This document shows, piece by piece, positions 9,773 to 16,409 of a stretch of DNA of 64,000 nucleotides. The stretch covers positions 1,302,001 to 1,366,000 of the forward strand of contig NZ_CP035108.1 of the NCBI RefSeq assembly GCF_004087915.1, in the 5' to 3' direction. The notes below the pieces were generated by a model that had not been told where the DNA came from, searched no databases, and saw only the letters and a program-made list of their open reading frames with translations. Each line of letters starts with the position of its first letter. Within the stretch, counting starts at the first letter, position 1. The translations under genes and the position numbers were made by a program. Source of the DNA: Geovibrio thiophilus (GTDB lineage: Bacteria; Chrysiogenota; Deferribacteres; Deferribacterales; Geovibrionaceae).

Positions 9773-10274
9773 AGTCGGAACCTCTGCTGTTGTGCTTTCT
9801 TTTCTTCTGATAGTGTCGTCTGTTATTTTTTCTGTTTCACATGTTTTCAGCGGAATGAACGGGGCAAAATGGGTCATTGCCGCTATTGTGGTCGGTTTTA
9901 CACTGTTCAACTTTATATCGCTGTATTTCAGGCGGCTTGAGGTTGAGGATGATGAGGTGCGCCTCTTCACCGTATACGGCAGAAAATCCATAAAGCTCAG
10001 CGCCCTTGAGGAGATAGGCGTAATACTGCTGAAAATGCGGGCTATCCTTATCCTTTCGGATGCAGAAAAGTTTGTTTTCGTATCATCATATTTCAGAAAT
10101 TTTGCTGAATTTACCGAACTGGTTAAATCGAATGTGAATGCGGAGCTTCAGGGAAATATTGCGAAGCTTGATAATAAGCTCATCAGAAAAAAACAGATAA
10201 CCTTCATGGCTCTGCTTGCCGTGCTGAATATATTTCTTGTGGGTTCAGCGGTTTATAATTTCGTTAATGGCTGA
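9759..10274 (+). CDS. Small membrane protein with PH-like central domain, unknown function
   Basis: 171 residues with two hydrophobic helices at the N-terminus (about 9-30 and 38-55), a soluble beta-rich middle (about 57-135: RRLEVEDDEVRLFTVYGRK then LILSDAEKFVFVSSYF) resembling bacterial PH-like domains, and a final helix at 148-168. TTG at 9759 is used because GGAG lies 8 bases upstream; it overlaps the end of the TPR gene by 14 bases, indicating translational coupling. Its 3' end overlaps the convergent rsmI gene by 30 bases. The PH-like call is by pattern only. Confidence 0.7.
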   Translation: MTVYRVGTSAVVLSFLLIVSSVIFSVSHVFSGMNGAKWVIAAIVVGFTLFNFISLYFRRLEVEDDEVRLFTVYGRKSIKLSALEEIGVILLKMRAILILSDAEKFVFVSSYFRNFAEFTELVKSNVNAELQGNIAKLDNKLIRKKQITFMALLAVLNIFLVGSAVYNFVNG

Positions 10275-11066
10275 GTAGGCTGCGTTTCTTTTAACACCCA
10301 AGGCTTTCAGAACAGTCAGGCAGTCCTTGGCGGACAGCCCCTCCTTTATCAGGGTTTCCGCCAGTTCCCTGAAATCCTCTTTCTCTTCCTTTTCTTCCTC
10401 TCTGCGGTTGTTTACCACCAGAACAAACTCACCCTTCAGCATGAGGGCGTTTATATCCTCTTCGGTGCTTATCAGGAGGGTTTCCTCGTGGAGTTTGCTT
10501 ATCTCCCTGCTGAGTGAGACAGGGACGGGGAAATTATCAATGAGGAGCTTAAGAGTTTCAGCAACCCTGTGAGGGGATTCATAGAAGACAATGAGGCTGT
10601 TTATCGTTTTGAGTTTTTCAATTTCACCCTTCTTTTCAGACAGCTTATGGGGCAAAAAACCGTGAAAGTAGAAATCAGAGGTGTCAAATCCGGAGAGAGT
10701 GAGCGCAGGAACAAACGCAGTCGCCCCGGGCAGAGCCTCAAACTGTATATTCGCTTCACGCAGGGCGGCGCTGAGGTACATTCCCGGGTCTGATATACAG
10801 GGGGAGCCCGCTTCGCTGATAACGGCGATTTTTTTACCCTCGCCGAGCAGTTCCATAACACGGTGAATGGTTTTTTTCTCGTTATCCTTGTGGAATGATT
10901 CGATTTTAACCTTGATTTCAAGGTGGCTGAGAAGTTTAAGAGCTGTTCTGGTGTCTTCGGCGAAGACAATATCCGCCGCGCGCAGGGCGGCAACAGCCCG
11001 TATTGTTATATCGCCCAGATTACCCACGGGTGTGGGGACAAAGCTGAGAAGAGGGTTACTGCTCAT
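10245..11066 (-). CDS. rsmI: 16S rRNA (cytidine-1402-2'-O)-methyltransferase RsmI
   Basis: SAM-dependent methyltransferase of the tetrapyrrole-methylase fold that modifies C1402 in the ribosomal decoding centre. The N-terminal signature VPTPVGNLGDITIRA (about 11-25), the FAEDTRTALKLLSHL motif (about 35-50), ISEAGSPCISDPG (about 84-96) and the late FYESPHRVAETL motif are all present. Length 273 is standard. Its ATG overlaps the stop of the upstream DUF2914 gene by 11 bases, so translation is coupled. Confidence 0.96.
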   Translation of the reverse strand: MSSNPLLSFVPTPVGNLGDITIRAVAALRAADIVFAEDTRTALKLLSHLEIKVKIESFHKDNEKKTIHRVMELLGEGKKIAVISEAGSPCISDPGMYLSAALREANIQFEALPGATAFVPALTLSGFDTSDFYFHGFLPHKLSEKKGEIEKLKTINSLIVFYESPHRVAETLKLLIDNFPVPVSLSREISKLHEETLLISTEEDINALMLKGEFVLVVNNRREEEKEEKEDFRELAETLIKEGLSAKDCLTVLKALGVKRNAAYSAINEIINR

Positions 11067-11442
11067 TAACCTTAAAGTCTACAGAGTCTATAAGCTGACC
11101 GCTCTGGGCGTATATCTCCACTTTCCACTCCCCTGTTTTATCGGGGCTGATGGTTTTGGAGCTGTATGTTCTCCATTTCGGGGAGCCAATGAAGAGCTTG
11201 ACTTCCGCCTCAATGTTTTTTTCATGTATCCAGATGTGGGTTATTTCGGTGGGGTACTCATCCGTCTGGATTTCGGTAAAGCAGTAGATGTCCTGCATGC
11301 CGCCGCCGACGGTGCTCACATTGTCCGCAGGCTCTTTGTTTTCTATGCCTGTGGTCACAACTATTCTGCTGACTTTTGTCTGCGCATGAGCCAGATTCGT
11401 CATAAGTAAAACCGCAAGGAAAACAAGAAACGCCTTTTTCAT
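11056..11442 (-). CDS. Secreted DUF2914-type protein
   Basis: 128 residues with a signal peptide (1-20, ending AHA). The mature domain is a short beta-rich module: SRIVVTTGIENKEP, then a VYCFTEIQ-like strand (IYCFTEIQTDEYPTEITHIW), WRTYSSKTISPDKTGEWKVE, and a last strand LIDSVDFKV. This matches the DUF2914 pattern, a periplasmic or surface domain without assigned activity. GGAG stands 7 bases before the ATG. It sits between trxB and rsmI and overlaps rsmI. There is a single cysteine in the mature part. Confidence 0.75.
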   Translation of the reverse strand: MKKAFLVFLAVLLMTNLAHAQTKVSRIVVTTGIENKEPADNVSTVGGGMQDIYCFTEIQTDEYPTEITHIWIHEKNIEAEVKLFIGSPKWRTYSSKTISPDKTGEWKVEIYAQSGQLIDSVDFKVNEQ

Positions 11443-11458
11443 ATGTCAACTCCGTATA

Positions 11459-12421
11459 TTATTGTTCAAATACTTCGCCGATGTATTTTCCGGCTGCCTT
11501 GGCGGCTACCGAGCCGTCAGCCACTGCCGTTGTGATCTGCCTTAGGGGTTTCCAGCGCACATCGCCTGCGGCAAAAATGCCCGGAACGCTGGTTTCGGTG
11601 GTTTCATCCGCCACTATAAAGCCGCTTTCGTCAAGCTTGATAAGATCTTTGACAAGTTCTGTATCCGCCGTCTGACCTATGAAAACGAAGATGCCCGCTA
11701 CCTCAAGCTCTGATTCTTCGCCTGTTTTCAGGTTTTTCAGAGATACTGAGCTCACTTTCTGGTCGCCGTTCACCGCTGTTACCACAGTATCCCATATGAA
11801 GCTCATTTTTTCATGTTTGAGTGCTCTGTCCTGATATATTTTTGCCGCGCGCAGCTTGTCCCTGCGATGGATTATGGTTACTTTGCTGGCGAATTTCGTA
11901 AGGTACAGACCTTCCTCAACGGCAGAATCGCCGCCGCCGATTACGGCAATTTCCTTGTCTTTGTAGAAGGAGCCGTCACAGGTGGCGCAGAAAGACACAC
12001 CGCGCCCAAAAAATCTGTTTTCACCTGTTACATCAAGCCTTTTCCAGTGTGCGCCGAGACAGAGAATAAGAGCTTTAGCCTTTATCTGAAAGGAGAGGTT
12101 TTTTATTGTAAGGTATTTATAGTCACCCTTAACTTCTATGTTCTGACATTCCGCAGCGCGGATCACAACGCCGAATTTTTCCGCATGGGCGTACATTTTC
12201 TCGCTTAAATCAGCTCCCATGAGCCCTTCAGGAAACCCCGGATAGTTTTCCACAAATTCGGTGGTTGCGACCTGACCGCCGGGGAACTGCTTTTCGAGCA
12301 AAAGGGTACTGAGATTGTCTCTGGCTGCGTACATCGCAGCGGTAAGACCCGCAGGACCCGCGCCGAGAATCACTACGTCATATTCTTCCTTAATATCCTG
12401 AAAGTTGAAAAAGTCCTGCAT
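11459..12421 (-). CDS. trxB: Thioredoxin reductase
   Basis: FAD-dependent enzyme that reduces thioredoxin with NADPH. The FAD-binding motif GAGPAGLTAAMYAARDNL (about 21-38), the redox-active CATCDG (Cys-x2-Cys near 145-148), the nucleotide motif VIGGGDSAVEEGLYL (about 160-174) and the C-terminal FAD motif GIFAAGDVRWKPLRQ are present in 320 residues. AAAGGAG immediately precedes the ATG, which follows the stop of the upstream thioredoxin-fold gene without a gap. The partner thioredoxin is not obvious in the window, because the adjacent thioredoxin-like protein has no cysteines. The nucleotide (NADPH or ferredoxin) is not decided here. Confidence 0.95.
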   Translation of the reverse strand: MQDFFNFQDIKEEYDVVILGAGPAGLTAAMYAARDNLSTLLLEKQFPGGQVATTEFVENYPGFPEGLMGADLSEKMYAHAEKFGVVIRAAECQNIEVKGDYKYLTIKNLSFQIKAKALILCLGAHWKRLDVTGENRFFGRGVSFCATCDGSFYKDKEIAVIGGGDSAVEEGLYLTKFASKVTIIHRRDKLRAAKIYQDRALKHEKMSFIWDTVVTAVNGDQKVSSVSLKNLKTGEESELEVAGIFVFIGQTADTELVKDLIKLDESGFIVADETTETSVPGIFAAGDVRWKPLRQITTAVADGSVAAKAAGKYIGEVFEQ

Positions 12422-12955
12422 TTATACTCCTTTAAGTATGCGAATAATCTTATCCACGGAGGGAACTTTATCTTGGTAAAGTATTGTGTTGTTCCTGTCC
12501 ATCAGAAAAAAATGAGGCCAGCTCCGAACACCGAAGTAGCCTGACAATAGTTCAGTATTACTCAAATAGATGCTATTTTCAAGGATTTTATACTTATTCC
12601 GTCCGAGTAGTTTTTTGACCGATTCGGGCGTCTGCTCAACATCCGTGACCACAATCAGCTTCATGTAGCCTGCCTGCTCAATCAGTTTCAGTTCAGGAAC
12701 CGCCTTCATTATCAGGTTAGGATATATATTGCTGGTGAAGAAGGTTTTTGTGTTGAGGAACACAAGCATGACCGGTATTCCTATTTCATCTGTAGTGAAA
12801 GTTTGCCCTTCAAGGGTCCGAAACTCCAGCTTTTCCGCCTTATAACCTTCCGGCAGAGCTTCATTAAACCTGCTCTGCCAGAGTGTATAGAAGGCAAGGG
12901 CGATTATGCCGAAAACCAGAATACTTTTACCGTCGAAGAAGCGAGCCTTTTTCAA
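12422..12955 (-). CDS. Membrane-anchored thioredoxin-fold protein without cysteines
   Basis: 177 residues: one N-terminal membrane helix (about 11-26) followed by a TlpA/redoxin-like domain. The fold is suggested by LEGQTFTTDEIG, the strand VMLVFLN, and the conserved cis-proline loop SWPHFFLMDRNN near 142-153. At the place where TlpA proteins carry WCxxC the sequence is TKTFFTSN, and the protein has no cysteine anywhere, so it cannot do thiol-disulfide exchange. It is directly followed by trxB with zero intergenic bases. It may be a structural or chaperone-like relative; its function is unknown. Confidence 0.7.
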   Translation of the reverse strand: MKKARFFDGKSILVFGIIALAFYTLWQSRFNEALPEGYKAEKLEFRTLEGQTFTTDEIGIPVMLVFLNTKTFFTSNIYPNLIMKAVPELKLIEQAGYMKLIVVTDVEQTPESVKKLLGRNKYKILENSIYLSNTELLSGYFGVRSWPHFFLMDRNNTILYQDKVPSVDKIIRILKGV

Positions 12956-12957
12956 AT

Positions 12958-13794
12958 CTAACCCCGCATTTTAAGGCTTATGTCGACTCCTGTCGCCTGA
13001 TGGGTGAGGGCGCCTATGGAAACATAGTCCACATCCACGTCTCTGAGCTGTTTCAGAAACTCAAGGGTTACGCCGCCCGATACCTCAATTTTTGCTCTTT
13101 TATCAATGACTCTGACAGCTTCCTGAATTGCCGGAATGTCAAAGTTATCAAGCATTATTATGTCCGCTCCGGCTTCCACTGCCTCTTCAACCTCCTTGAG
13201 GTTACGGGTTTCCACCTCCACCTTTACGGTGGTGGGAATGAACCGGCGAACGTTTTTAACGGCTCCCGTGATGCTGCCCGCAGCGTCCACATGGTTGTCC
13301 TTAAGCATTACGCCGTCGAAGAGACCGAGCCTGTGGTTCCAGCCGCCGCCTGTCTTGACGGCGTATTTCTCTATCCTGCGCCAGCCCGGAGTTGTTTTGC
13401 GGGTGTCGAGTATTTTAATTTTGGAATCTCCCAGAGCTTCAACGTATTTTGCCGTGTTGGTGGCAACCCCTGAAAGCCTCTGGAGGAAGTTAAGCGAAGT
13501 TCTTTCACCCGTGAGAATCGAGCTTGCCGGTCCGGTGACCTGACCGATTATACGGCGTTCCGTAATGCGGTCGCCGTCTTTTACGGAGAACTCCACCTTC
13601 ACTTCGTGATCAAGCATGAAATAAACCTCCTGCGCAACCTTGGTTCCGCAGATGATGCAGTTTTCCTTGGCTATGAAGTTAAAAGTCGCCTGAGATTTGA
13701 AGGACTCAAACGCTCCCGCCGTGAGGTCGCCTGTTCCTATGTCCTCATCGAGGGCAAGCTGTATGAGCCTTCTGGTGTATCCGTTTATCAGCAT
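12958..13794 (-). CDS. nadC: Nicotinate-nucleotide pyrophosphorylase (quinolinate phosphoribosyltransferase)
   Basis: Converts quinolinate and PRPP to nicotinate mononucleotide in de novo NAD synthesis. Signature stretches in 278 residues: EDIGTGDLTAGAF (about 18-30), ERTSLNFLQRLSGVAT (about 97-112), DTRKTTPGWRRIEKYAV (about 128-144), GGGWNHRLGLFDGVMLKDNH and the C-terminal VSGGVTLEFLK. The ATG overlaps the valS stop by 7 bases, so the gene is probably expressed with valS. No nadA or nadB lies nearby. Confidence 0.97.
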   Translation of the reverse strand: MLINGYTRRLIQLALDEDIGTGDLTAGAFESFKSQATFNFIAKENCIICGTKVAQEVYFMLDHEVKVEFSVKDGDRITERRIIGQVTGPASSILTGERTSLNFLQRLSGVATNTAKYVEALGDSKIKILDTRKTTPGWRRIEKYAVKTGGGWNHRLGLFDGVMLKDNHVDAAGSITGAVKNVRRFIPTTVKVEVETRNLKEVEEAVEAGADIIMLDNFDIPAIQEAVRVIDKRAKIEVSGGVTLEFLKQLRDVDVDYVSIGALTHQATGVDISLKMRG

Positions 13795-16409
13795 TGGCTT
13801 TTCAGTCTCCTGAGGTTTTCTTCTATCTTAGCGGCAAGGGTTGAGACCTCTTCAAATTTCTTTTTGTCTTTTTCAATGATCTCAGGTGCAGCATTGGCGA
13901 GATACTTCTCGTTTTTCAGCTTGCCGCCGTACACATTGAGATCTTTTTCCACCGCTTTCTGCTCTTTCTCAAGTTTTTTGATCTCTGCCTCCACATCTAT
14001 AAGACCCTGAAGGGGAACATAGACAGTGAAACTGCCGGCAATGTTCGCTACGGAGTCGGCGGGTTCCGCATCGGTGAAGTCCATGCTCTCAAGCCTTGCG
14101 AGGTTTATTACCCTGTCTTTGGCGTGGGTGAAGAGCTCTTTTGTCTTGGCGCTGTCTGTTTTTACCCATGCCTTAAGCTGCTTGGACATGGAAACATTAT
14201 ATTCGCCCCGCACGTTTCGGATAAGGCTCACAAGCTCAATAACTGCGTCCGTCTCCTCCATTTCCGTCTGCCATGTGAAGTCCGGCTCGGGATAGGTTTC
14301 AGCCATTACTGACTGTCTGCCTGTGAGCATTTTATAGATATACTCCGTCACAAAGGGCATGAACGGATGAAGGATAATCAGAGATTTTTCAAGAACGTAA
14401 GCCGCCACTGCCATTGCGTCCGCTTTGGTCTCCTCATTGTAGATTCTGGGCTTGATGAACTCTATGTACCAGTCGCAGAACTTATGCCAGAAGAAGCTGT
14501 ATATGCTCAGCGCTCCTTCGTTGAAGTCGTATTTCTTGATGGCTTCGGCTGTCTGCTCCGCTGTTTTGCGGAGGTTCATGAGAATCCATTTATCTTCAAT
14601 TTTCAGCCTGTCCGCAGGGGGCAGGGGAGCGCCATCCTCAAAATTCATCATGATGAACCTTGAGGCGTTCCATATCTTGTTCACAAAGTTTCTGTAACCG
14701 TCTATGCGCTCTTCGGACATTTTTATATCACGCCCCTGAGCGGCAAACGCGGCGAGAGTGAAGCGGAAGGAATCCGCTCCGAATTTATCTATCATCACCA
14801 AGGGATCTATTACGTTCCCCTTTGATTTGCTCATTTTCTGCCCGTGCTGATCACGCACGAGGGCATGGAGATAAACCTCTTTAAAAGGCTTTTCATCCAT
14901 GAACTTATACCCGTCCATTATCATCCTTGCCACCCAGAAGAACAGGATGTCGAACCCTGTAACAAGGCAGGAGGTAGGGTAGAATTTTTCCAGTGTTTTG
15001 GTTTTTTCCGGCCAGCCCATGGTTGAAAAAGGCCAGAGGGCGGAGGAGAACCATGTATCCAGAACGTCAGGATCCTGAGTGAGGCTGGCGCTGCCGCATT
15101 TCGGGCATGTGTCGGGGTCTTCCGTCTCTACTATAATCTCTCCGCATCCTGCGCAGTACCACGCGGGAATTCTGTGCCCCCACCATATCTGGCGGCTGAT
15201 GCACCAGTCACGGATGTTGTACATCCATTCGTAGTATGTGTTTTTCCATGATTCGGGGTAGATTTTAATGTCGCCCGTTTCCACGCCCTCAATGGCTTTT
15301 TCCGCCAGAGGCTTTATCTTCACGAACCACTGTTTGGAGATTGTGGGTTCAACAATTGTAGTGCATCTCTGGCAGTGACCGACGCTGTGCATGTGAGCAT
15401 CTTTTTTTACGAAGAGACCGAGCCTGTCCAGCTCATCAATGACCTGCTTTCTGGCGACGAACCTGTCCAGCCCTGCGAACTGCCCGCCGTTGGCGTTTAT
15501 TTTGCCGCTTTCGTCCATTACCTTGACAGCAGGAAGGTCATGCCTTCTGCCTATTTCAAAGTCGTTGGGATCGTGAGCGGGGGTAACTTTCAGGCAGCCT
15601 GTTCCCATTTCCATATCAACGTATTCATCGCCGATTACGGGTATCTCACGGTTCATCAGGGGCAGGATAACGGTTTTGCCTATGAGGTGTCTGTATCTTT
15701 CATCTTCCGGATGAACGGCAACTGCTGTATCACCCAGCATTGTTTCAGGTCTGGTTGTGGCTACTGTGAGTTTTATATCGCTGTCTTTGACAGGGTAAAG
15801 GATCTGATAGAAGGCGCCTTCGGTGTCTTCGTGCTCAACCTCAAGGTCGCTGAGGGCGGTATGGCATCTGGGGCACCAGTTTACAATATAGTCCGAGCGG
15901 TAGATCAGCCCTTCCTTATACAGAGTCACAAATACCTTGCGGACTGCGGCGCTGAGCCCTTCGTCCATTGTGAAGCGCTCACGCTCCCAGTCGCAGGAAC
16001 AGCCGAGGCGTTTAAGCTGGTTTATGATTGTTCCGCCTGATTCCGTACGCCATTTCCATACTCTTTCTATGAAAGCGTCACGCCCGAGGGCGTGCCTGTC
16101 TGTTCCTTCGGCAGCGAGCTGTTTTTCCACCACATTCTGTGTGGCGATCCCTGCGTGATCCGTTCCGGGCATCCATAGGGCTTCAAAACCCGCAAGACGG
16201 TGATAGCGGATGAGAATATCCTGCAAAGTATTGTTCAGCGCATGCCCCATGTGAAGCGAGCCTGTGACGTTTGGCGGAGGTATTACTATGGAATAGGCGG
16301 GTTTTCCGGAATTTTCATTCGCATGAAACCTGTTATCCTTTATCCATTCCGCGTAAATGTCTGCTTCAAATTCCTTCGGGTCGATTCGCGTGGGTATTTC
16401 TTTCGGCAT
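13788..16409 (-). CDS. valS: Valyl-tRNA synthetase
   Basis: Class I synthetase charging tRNA-Val, 873 residues. HIGH motif in PPPNVTGSLHMGHALNN (about 44-60), editing (CP1) domain with TTRPETMLGDTAVAVHP, a zinc-type CAGC...CPKC element near 410-435, KMSKS motif in GQKMSKSKGNVIDP (about 528-541), and the C-terminal ValS coiled-coil arm (about 800-873, rich in Lys/Glu), which is specific to ValS rather than IleS or LeuS. GGAGCTGAGAATA precedes the ATG at 16409. Confidence 0.98.
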   Translation of the reverse strand: MPKEIPTRIDPKEFEADIYAEWIKDNRFHANENSGKPAYSIVIPPPNVTGSLHMGHALNNTLQDILIRYHRLAGFEALWMPGTDHAGIATQNVVEKQLAAEGTDRHALGRDAFIERVWKWRTESGGTIINQLKRLGCSCDWERERFTMDEGLSAAVRKVFVTLYKEGLIYRSDYIVNWCPRCHTALSDLEVEHEDTEGAFYQILYPVKDSDIKLTVATTRPETMLGDTAVAVHPEDERYRHLIGKTVILPLMNREIPVIGDEYVDMEMGTGCLKVTPAHDPNDFEIGRRHDLPAVKVMDESGKINANGGQFAGLDRFVARKQVIDELDRLGLFVKKDAHMHSVGHCQRCTTIVEPTISKQWFVKIKPLAEKAIEGVETGDIKIYPESWKNTYYEWMYNIRDWCISRQIWWGHRIPAWYCAGCGEIIVETEDPDTCPKCGSASLTQDPDVLDTWFSSALWPFSTMGWPEKTKTLEKFYPTSCLVTGFDILFFWVARMIMDGYKFMDEKPFKEVYLHALVRDQHGQKMSKSKGNVIDPLVMIDKFGADSFRFTLAAFAAQGRDIKMSEERIDGYRNFVNKIWNASRFIMMNFEDGAPLPPADRLKIEDKWILMNLRKTAEQTAEAIKKYDFNEGALSIYSFFWHKFCDWYIEFIKPRIYNEETKADAMAVAAYVLEKSLIILHPFMPFVTEYIYKMLTGRQSVMAETYPEPDFTWQTEMEETDAVIELVSLIRNVRGEYNVSMSKQLKAWVKTDSAKTKELFTHAKDRVINLARLESMDFTDAEPADSVANIAGSFTVYVPLQGLIDVEAEIKKLEKEQKAVEKDLNVYGGKLKNEKYLANAAPEIIEKDKKKFEEVSTLAAKIEENLRRLKSQC

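Follow-up and report, generated by a model that had tools for sequence, protein, structure and literature searches.

A CxxC-free, membrane-anchored protein of predicted TlpA/ResA-type fold beside trxB in Geovibrio thiophilus and other Deferribacterales

The gene and its predicted fold

The gene at 12422..12955 on the minus strand of the Geovibrio thiophilus window (the whole stretch of 64,000 nucleotides that was analysed) encodes a 177-residue membrane protein predicted to be a variant of the TlpA/ResA kind without the CxxC motif. This confirms an observation made earlier in a sequence-only reading; the tie to the thioredoxin system is interesting but unproven. The TlpA and ResA proteins are defined by CxxC, and here a family that has long been without it has kept the fold, the anchor, the groove and a link to thioredoxin genes. 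This suggests that selection in the bacterial envelope can act on a substrate-binding face by itself and raises the question of a non-catalytic adaptor of the thioredoxin system at the membrane, for which the trxB and trxA neighbours, the invariant residues and an orthologue with a lone cysteine are direct handles. Searches of the open-access literature turned up no account of the family.

The gene was delimited as an ORF and by its predicted fold. It starts with TTG, 2 nt past the stop of nadC (12958..13794, minus strand; quinolinate phosphoribosyltransferase), which lies directly upstream, and comprises neither cysteine codons nor in-frame stops, the latter ruling out selenocysteine as a replacement for cysteine. 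Its TAA stop (12422-12424) abuts the ATG (12419-12421) of trxB (11459..12421, minus strand), a thioredoxin reductase gene with FAD/NAD domains by Pfam and, judging by its sequence, a CATC motif, which is the sole TrxB match in the window genome at E <= 1e-10. Read along the minus strand, the genes are valS, nadC, the 177-residue gene, trxB, one for a DUF2914 protein and one of the rsmI type. The conserved neighbour at 13788..16409 (minus strand) is presumably valS, and the gene at 10245..11066 (minus strand), with a tetrapyrrole-methylase fold by its sequence, is likewise taken to be of the rsmI type. The DUF2914 gene (11056..11442, minus strand), downstream of trxB, encodes a signal-like N-terminus.

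Taken alone, the window protein matched no Pfam family above the cut-off, and its top NCBIfam match, ResA (E 0.003), was far below it; kinship to known families was visible only with the family profile. Searched against PDB sequences, this profile found pneumococcal Etrx2 as the best match (3.3e-7) and also ResA (1.4e-4), and 30 of the 33 family members matched AhpC-TSA (Pfam) at E <= 0.1. The AlphaFold (AF2) model, obtained with the 33-row alignment as input (pLDDT 88.2, pTM 0.82), comprises one helix at residues 9-29 (12869..12931, minus strand), taken as an N-terminal transmembrane helix, and then an alpha/beta order like that of TlpA, including the extra N-terminal strands of the TlpA/ResA type. 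With this model Foldseek retrieved 638 PDB chains at E <= 0.001, Bacillus ResA 4nmu being the top one (4.6e-8), and VIA-align gave Z 15.5 (rmsd 2.4, 134 aligned) against the Bacteroides thioredoxin domain 4grf and Z 15.3 against 3kcm. The closest structural matches are TlpA/ResA/DsbE-type domains, with ResA and CcmG types among the fold relatives, and the protein is therefore predicted, on the model, to have a TlpA/ResA-type thioredoxin fold. The sequence-only reading had recognised the membrane anchor, the TlpA strand order and the proline loop, and had named a structure unlike thioredoxin as the result that would speak against it; the predicted structure is thioredoxin-like.

Loss of the CxxC motif

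None of the 34 orthologues contains CxxC (33 aligned, 2 partial), and 29 of the 34 proteins are, as called, free of cysteine altogether. Four orthologues of a single genus (L008, L009, L012 and L013) present a Cys-Cys pair at residues 3-4 (MKCC or MRCC), in a short N-terminal tail predicted to be cytoplasmic. The exception within the domain is L033 (genome G014), where a lone cysteine at residue 87 (CPRY) falls exactly at the first CxxC position, possibly a relic of the lost active site. The register was obtained by aligning 33 members with six CxxC-containing relatives in three MAFFT modes. In the window protein, residues P79-N80-L81-I82 (12710..12721, minus strand) stand in place of the CxxC of TlpA and ResA, in the same register in the three MAFFT modes and in the HMMER alignment. 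The column of the first cysteine is occupied by N in 12 members, P in 7, S in 7, T in 5, D in 1 and C in 1, and that of the second by Y in 26, I in 4, L in 2 and F in 1. A peroxidatic cysteine like that of the peroxiredoxins (AhpC-TSA) is also absent, the window protein having no cysteine.

The proline loop, W146-P147-H148 in the window protein (12512..12520, minus strand), was recognised by its conservation in the family alignment: the proline, a putative cis-proline opposite the active site, is present in 33/33 members, an aromatic residue precedes it in 33/33 and a histidine follows it in 31/33. K163 is invariant in the family, and R29 and N31, at the outer end of the transmembrane helix, are invariant in all 32 rows that reach them. 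The family also differs from its CxxC relatives by an insertion of variable length before helix 1.

A search of 384 relatives matched 53 genomes outside the phylum, from which 12 stretches were fetched; 11 of these matches contain CxxC and the twelfth a single cysteine, so CxxC is probably the ancestral state. The loss is old, to judge from these sequences, and probably started from a CxxC ancestor and preceded the diversification of the order Deferribacterales. The absence of redox cysteines that had been read in the window protein thus holds for the motif across the order. As the fold is kept while both the cysteine loss and the linkage to trxB are conserved through the order, the non-catalytic role put forward in the same reading is supported.

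Distribution and evolutionary constraint

Orthologues were identified in 34 of the 45 Deferribacterales genomes searched, two of them partial at a contig end or gap (G043 and G022). The raw profile tally was 37 of 50 genomes, made up of these 34 orthologues and weak matches in G019, G028 and G048. The G019 and G028 matches fall in cysteine-containing, peroxiredoxin-like genes and were rejected as orthologues, while that in G048 is a diverged, trxA-linked relative from another class. Other candidates were also set aside: a second profile match in G040 lies inside a long, unrelated-looking ORF; a 1568-residue match in G030 belongs to a locus (L035) unmatched by any query protein at E <= 1e-3, the 177-residue protein included; and a fusion suggested by a 601-residue open frame in G022 comes from a frame that crosses a stretch of N. 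The gene was not found in the other 11 genomes of the order (G012, G013, G015, G019, G020, G021, G026, G028, G031, G032 and G044), of which G044 is only 57% complete. A search for related loci with the single window protein gave no relative. The same search with the family alignment gave 19 loci, all in Deferribacterales genera or uncultured relatives, the named genera including Denitrovibrio, Seleniivibrio and Mucispirillum.

The dN/dS of the 177-residue gene was 0.057-0.081 in three congeneric pairs, which are already far apart at synonymous sites (dS 0.77-0.96 for this gene). Among its neighbours in congeners, the values were 0.017-0.022 for trxB, 0.024-0.040 for nadC and 0.072-0.083 for the DUF2914 gene. 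The latter, similar in dN/dS to the 177-residue gene, is located downstream of trxB in many loci, not in all. Of the pairs with G003, one gave 0.183, and saturation of synonymous sites left the other two without a defined value. The 177-residue gene is under purifying selection, somewhat looser than that on the trxB and nadC enzymes. Homologues with CxxC had been named beforehand as a sign that the window copy is simply degenerating; none was identified among the 34 orthologues (2 partial), dN/dS is 0.06-0.08, and on these sequence comparisons the window copy is not degenerating.

Genomic context

The contact between stop and start seen in the window, from which a tight linkage to trxB had been proposed, is kept in the order: trxB follows the gene at -1 to +9 nt in 33 of the 33 loci that could be judged, that is, where the contig continues. 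Most loci preserve the order valS, trxB, rsmI, and many also contain nadC and DUF2914. The nadC gene is directly upstream in the 12 loci that belong to the family of the window genome; in the f3, f7 and f8 loci examined a small ORF separates the two, and the stretches of the f6 loci, G014 and G022 yielded no nadC. Of the two neighbours, trxB is the more strictly retained.

Genomes without the gene show the same block. In four f2 genomes nadC, an 88-residue ORF, trxB and rsmI lie together; G013 and G020 contain nadC, a small ORF, trxB and rsmI, with a gap of ~150 nt, plus DUF2914; and G028 contains valS, trxB and rsmI. The linkage evidence is thus weaker than it appears, because the valS...rsmI block is itself an old synteny. 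Moreover, nine of the 11 genomes in which the gene was not found have trxB, the exceptions being G015 and G044, where no TrxB was found either. As trxB is mostly present where the gene was not found, trxB does not need the 177-residue protein.

A conserved ORF of 86-88 residues (..IEDMEKAKRLARTIITDIVLYN..) was identified between nadC and the 177-residue gene or trxB in 12 of the 50 genomes of the phylum (L011, L017, L019, L023, L025, L030 and L045-L050). It has no Pfam match above the cut-off and was not found in the window genome.

Candidate relatives beside trxA

The weak match in G048 led to a diverged CxxC-free protein in three genomes of another class of the same phylum, G047, G048 and G049 (L103:5131-5613, L104:5159-5635 and L105:5090-5557). 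In 3/3 its gene lies directly downstream, on the same strand, of a thioredoxin gene encoding WCAPC, with a spacing of -4 to ~+116 nt according to which start is taken. A prepilin-peptidase-like gene (function read from the sequence) comes next. The adjacent trxA is the only match per genome at E <= 1e-15. The three proteins share two invariant cysteines, not arranged as CxxC, and may not be non-redox.

These three proteins are probably akin to the window family. Compared by hhalign, the window family gave 94.4% over 66 columns with one of their sequences and 96.1% over 142 columns, proline included, with the trio, while a control with the CxxC TlpA-like protein of the window genome itself gave 1.5%. 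In the reverse search with the G048 protein, 13 of the 18 rows outside its class were the 177-residue family (E 1.1e-4 to 0.055), these matches covering only residues 10-74 of the 156 of the query, its N-terminal half. The kinship signal is mostly in the transmembrane helix and its flank, and without them hhalign gave 11.2%, with a score of 23.7 against a maximum of 23.1 in 100 column shuffles. A tree of the soluble domain (14 of the 33 family members, the trio and 13 others) placed the family on one side of a branch (support 100/100), and a single clade of family plus trio was neither supported nor rejected (AU p 0.49). The trio was also among the 12 query rows of the 384-relative search, so its matches in that search are not independent. 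The trio model, built from three sequences only, also has a thioredoxin-like fold and reached pLDDT 81.6 and pTM 0.68, the five models spanning pLDDT 70.1-81.6; its top Foldseek match was Aquifex 3me7 (3.0e-7), and VIA gave Z 12.8, rmsd 2.2 and 110 aligned, with ResA 4nmu among the tied rows.

If the kinship holds, the family's link is with trxB in one class and with trxA in the other. This probable relative beside trxA is a stronger argument for a thioredoxin connection than the linkage to trxB.

Possible roles

In 32 of the 32 readable N-termini there are more K and R before the transmembrane helix than in the next 15 residues (means 4.5 and 1.6), and by the positive-inside rule the domain is predicted to be periplasmic. 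TrxB, in whose sequence no export signal was seen, would be cytoplasmic. A membrane domain of the CcdA/DsbD type was identified in 50 of the 50 genomes of the phylum, and its co-occurrence with the gene therefore discriminates nothing. The window genome contains a ccm-type cluster beside a CcdA-like gene (L136:1866-7392, gene names read from the sequence) and, elsewhere, a ResB-type gene (L137).

The reading favoured here, held tentatively and at somewhat less than an even chance, is that of a protein without catalytic activity that serves in the periplasm for binding or as an adaptor, within the branch that passes thiol-reducing power outward (TrxB-TrxA-CcdA). A relay from TrxB through TrxA and CcdA to an extracytoplasmic thioredoxin, linking the two sides of the membrane, is modelled for pneumococcal Etrx in an excerpt of PMC3914529. 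On the simplest account the family would descend from a membrane-anchored periplasmic acceptor of such a relay that lost its cysteines, and would now act without electron transfer and be kept for binding, since conservation extends to the groove residues and not to the catalytic ones. The groove, formed by the cis-proline, the preceding aromatic residue, the following histidine and the invariant K163, might bind periplasmic clients or a redox partner and present them to the CcdA-fed reductant, and co-expression with trxB might match the amount of protein to the supply of reducing power. A broader claim is rather unlikely: that this unnamed, redox-dead, membrane-anchored thioredoxin-fold family belongs structurally to the thioredoxin system throughout the phylum, trxB-linked in one class and trxA-linked in the other. 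Without catalysis of its own, it would bind clients in the periplasm or act there as a docking module of the outward relay, as a bacterial counterpart to the PDI domains that bind substrates non-catalytically.

Other explanations have to be weighed against the adaptor. The gene could be a passenger of its operon, encoding a conserved non-redox envelope protein (a holdase, or an assembly factor for cytochrome c or the envelope) with no thioredoxin tie, in an old valS-nadC-trxB-rsmI block that is rarely rearranged. The kept order of this block agrees with such an origin, as do the predicted periplasmic domain and the trxB genes of genomes without the gene, six of which stand in this block; however, the f6 loci keep the gene with trxB where nadC was not found beside it, and the probable relative in another class adjoins trxA. 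A passenger is well short of an even chance and still a serious possibility. The sequence-only reading had proposed a partner or scaffold role, and a direct one, with the protein as a membrane anchor recruiting TrxB, did not hold up as well: the genes abut or nearly abut in all the judgeable loci and a basic N-terminal tail of ~10-18 residues, predicted to be cytoplasmic, could bind a cytoplasmic protein, but that tail is short and poorly conserved and TrxB is present in most genomes without the gene. As the folded domain is predicted to be periplasmic, away from TrxB, a direct scaffold is very unlikely.

A factor for c-type cytochrome maturation, which would stand in for CcmG or ResA and bind apocytochrome or parts of the heme lyase but carry out no redox chemistry, is suggested by the ResA and CcmG types among the closest fold relatives, and no CcmG-like ORF was seen in the fetched stretch of the ccm-like cluster. 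It is nevertheless quite unlikely, given that four of four f2 genomes have ResB without the gene, that five of five f7 and f8 genomes have the gene without a ResB match, and that the window genome has a separate CxxC TlpA-like lipoprotein (read from the sequence; Pfam). A link to cytochrome c system II was rejected, the presence of ResB not tracking that of the gene. Finally, the loss of CxxC and the single first-position cysteine of one orthologue could be taken as signs of a functionless, degenerating remnant of a redox TlpA, an extremely unlikely explanation in view of the low dN/dS between congeners, the retention of the gene in 34 of 45 genomes and the kept proline, H148 and K163.

Comparison with known thioredoxin-fold systems

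The closest likeness is to the TlpA/ResA/CcmG oxidoreductases, with which the family shares an N-terminal membrane anchor with the domain predicted to lie outside (helix 9-29 and the positive-inside rule), a thioredoxin fold of the AhpC-TSA/TlpA type and a conserved proline loop. TlpA-like proteins are described in an excerpt of PMC8945050 as having a CXXC-containing Trx domain, and TlpA, ResA and CcmG have this motif, whereas it is present in 0/33 aligned members here, L033 with its lone cysteine included; the first position is mostly N, P, S or T, the second mostly Tyr, and the insertion before helix 1 is variable. Pneumococcal Etrx1 and Etrx2, the top PDB sequence matches of the family profile, also have a membrane-attached extracytoplasmic domain. 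They are CxxC lipoproteins and acceptors of the CcdA relay, according to the same excerpt of PMC3914529, whereas the family has a transmembrane helix and lacks the redox cysteines through which electrons from CcdA would pass.

The chaperedoxins CnoX/YbbN have a thioredoxin-fold domain that binds clients, and the E. coli form has SXXC in place of CXXC; CnoX has in addition a TPR domain and works with GroEL/DnaK (excerpt of PMC11241051). The 177 residues of the window protein, by comparison, hold one transmembrane helix and one thioredoxin domain, with no TPR domain and no cysteine.

Helper roles for a thioredoxin fold without CxxC are represented by HyaE and HupG, soluble hydrogenase chaperones tied to hydrogenase operons. 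This family was not among the Pfam matches of the 33 members at E <= 0.1, where a missing weak match says little. Calsequestrin and ERp27, eukaryotic and without a bacterial membrane anchor, share with the family here a thioredoxin fold without CxxC, in the case of calsequestrin, or without catalysis, in that of ERp27. The use of the fold without CxxC by calsequestrin is described in an excerpt of PMC7949104, and an excerpt of PMC2757866 lists the HyaE/HupG family and cites, in a reference title, ERp27 as a non-catalytic member of the PDI family.
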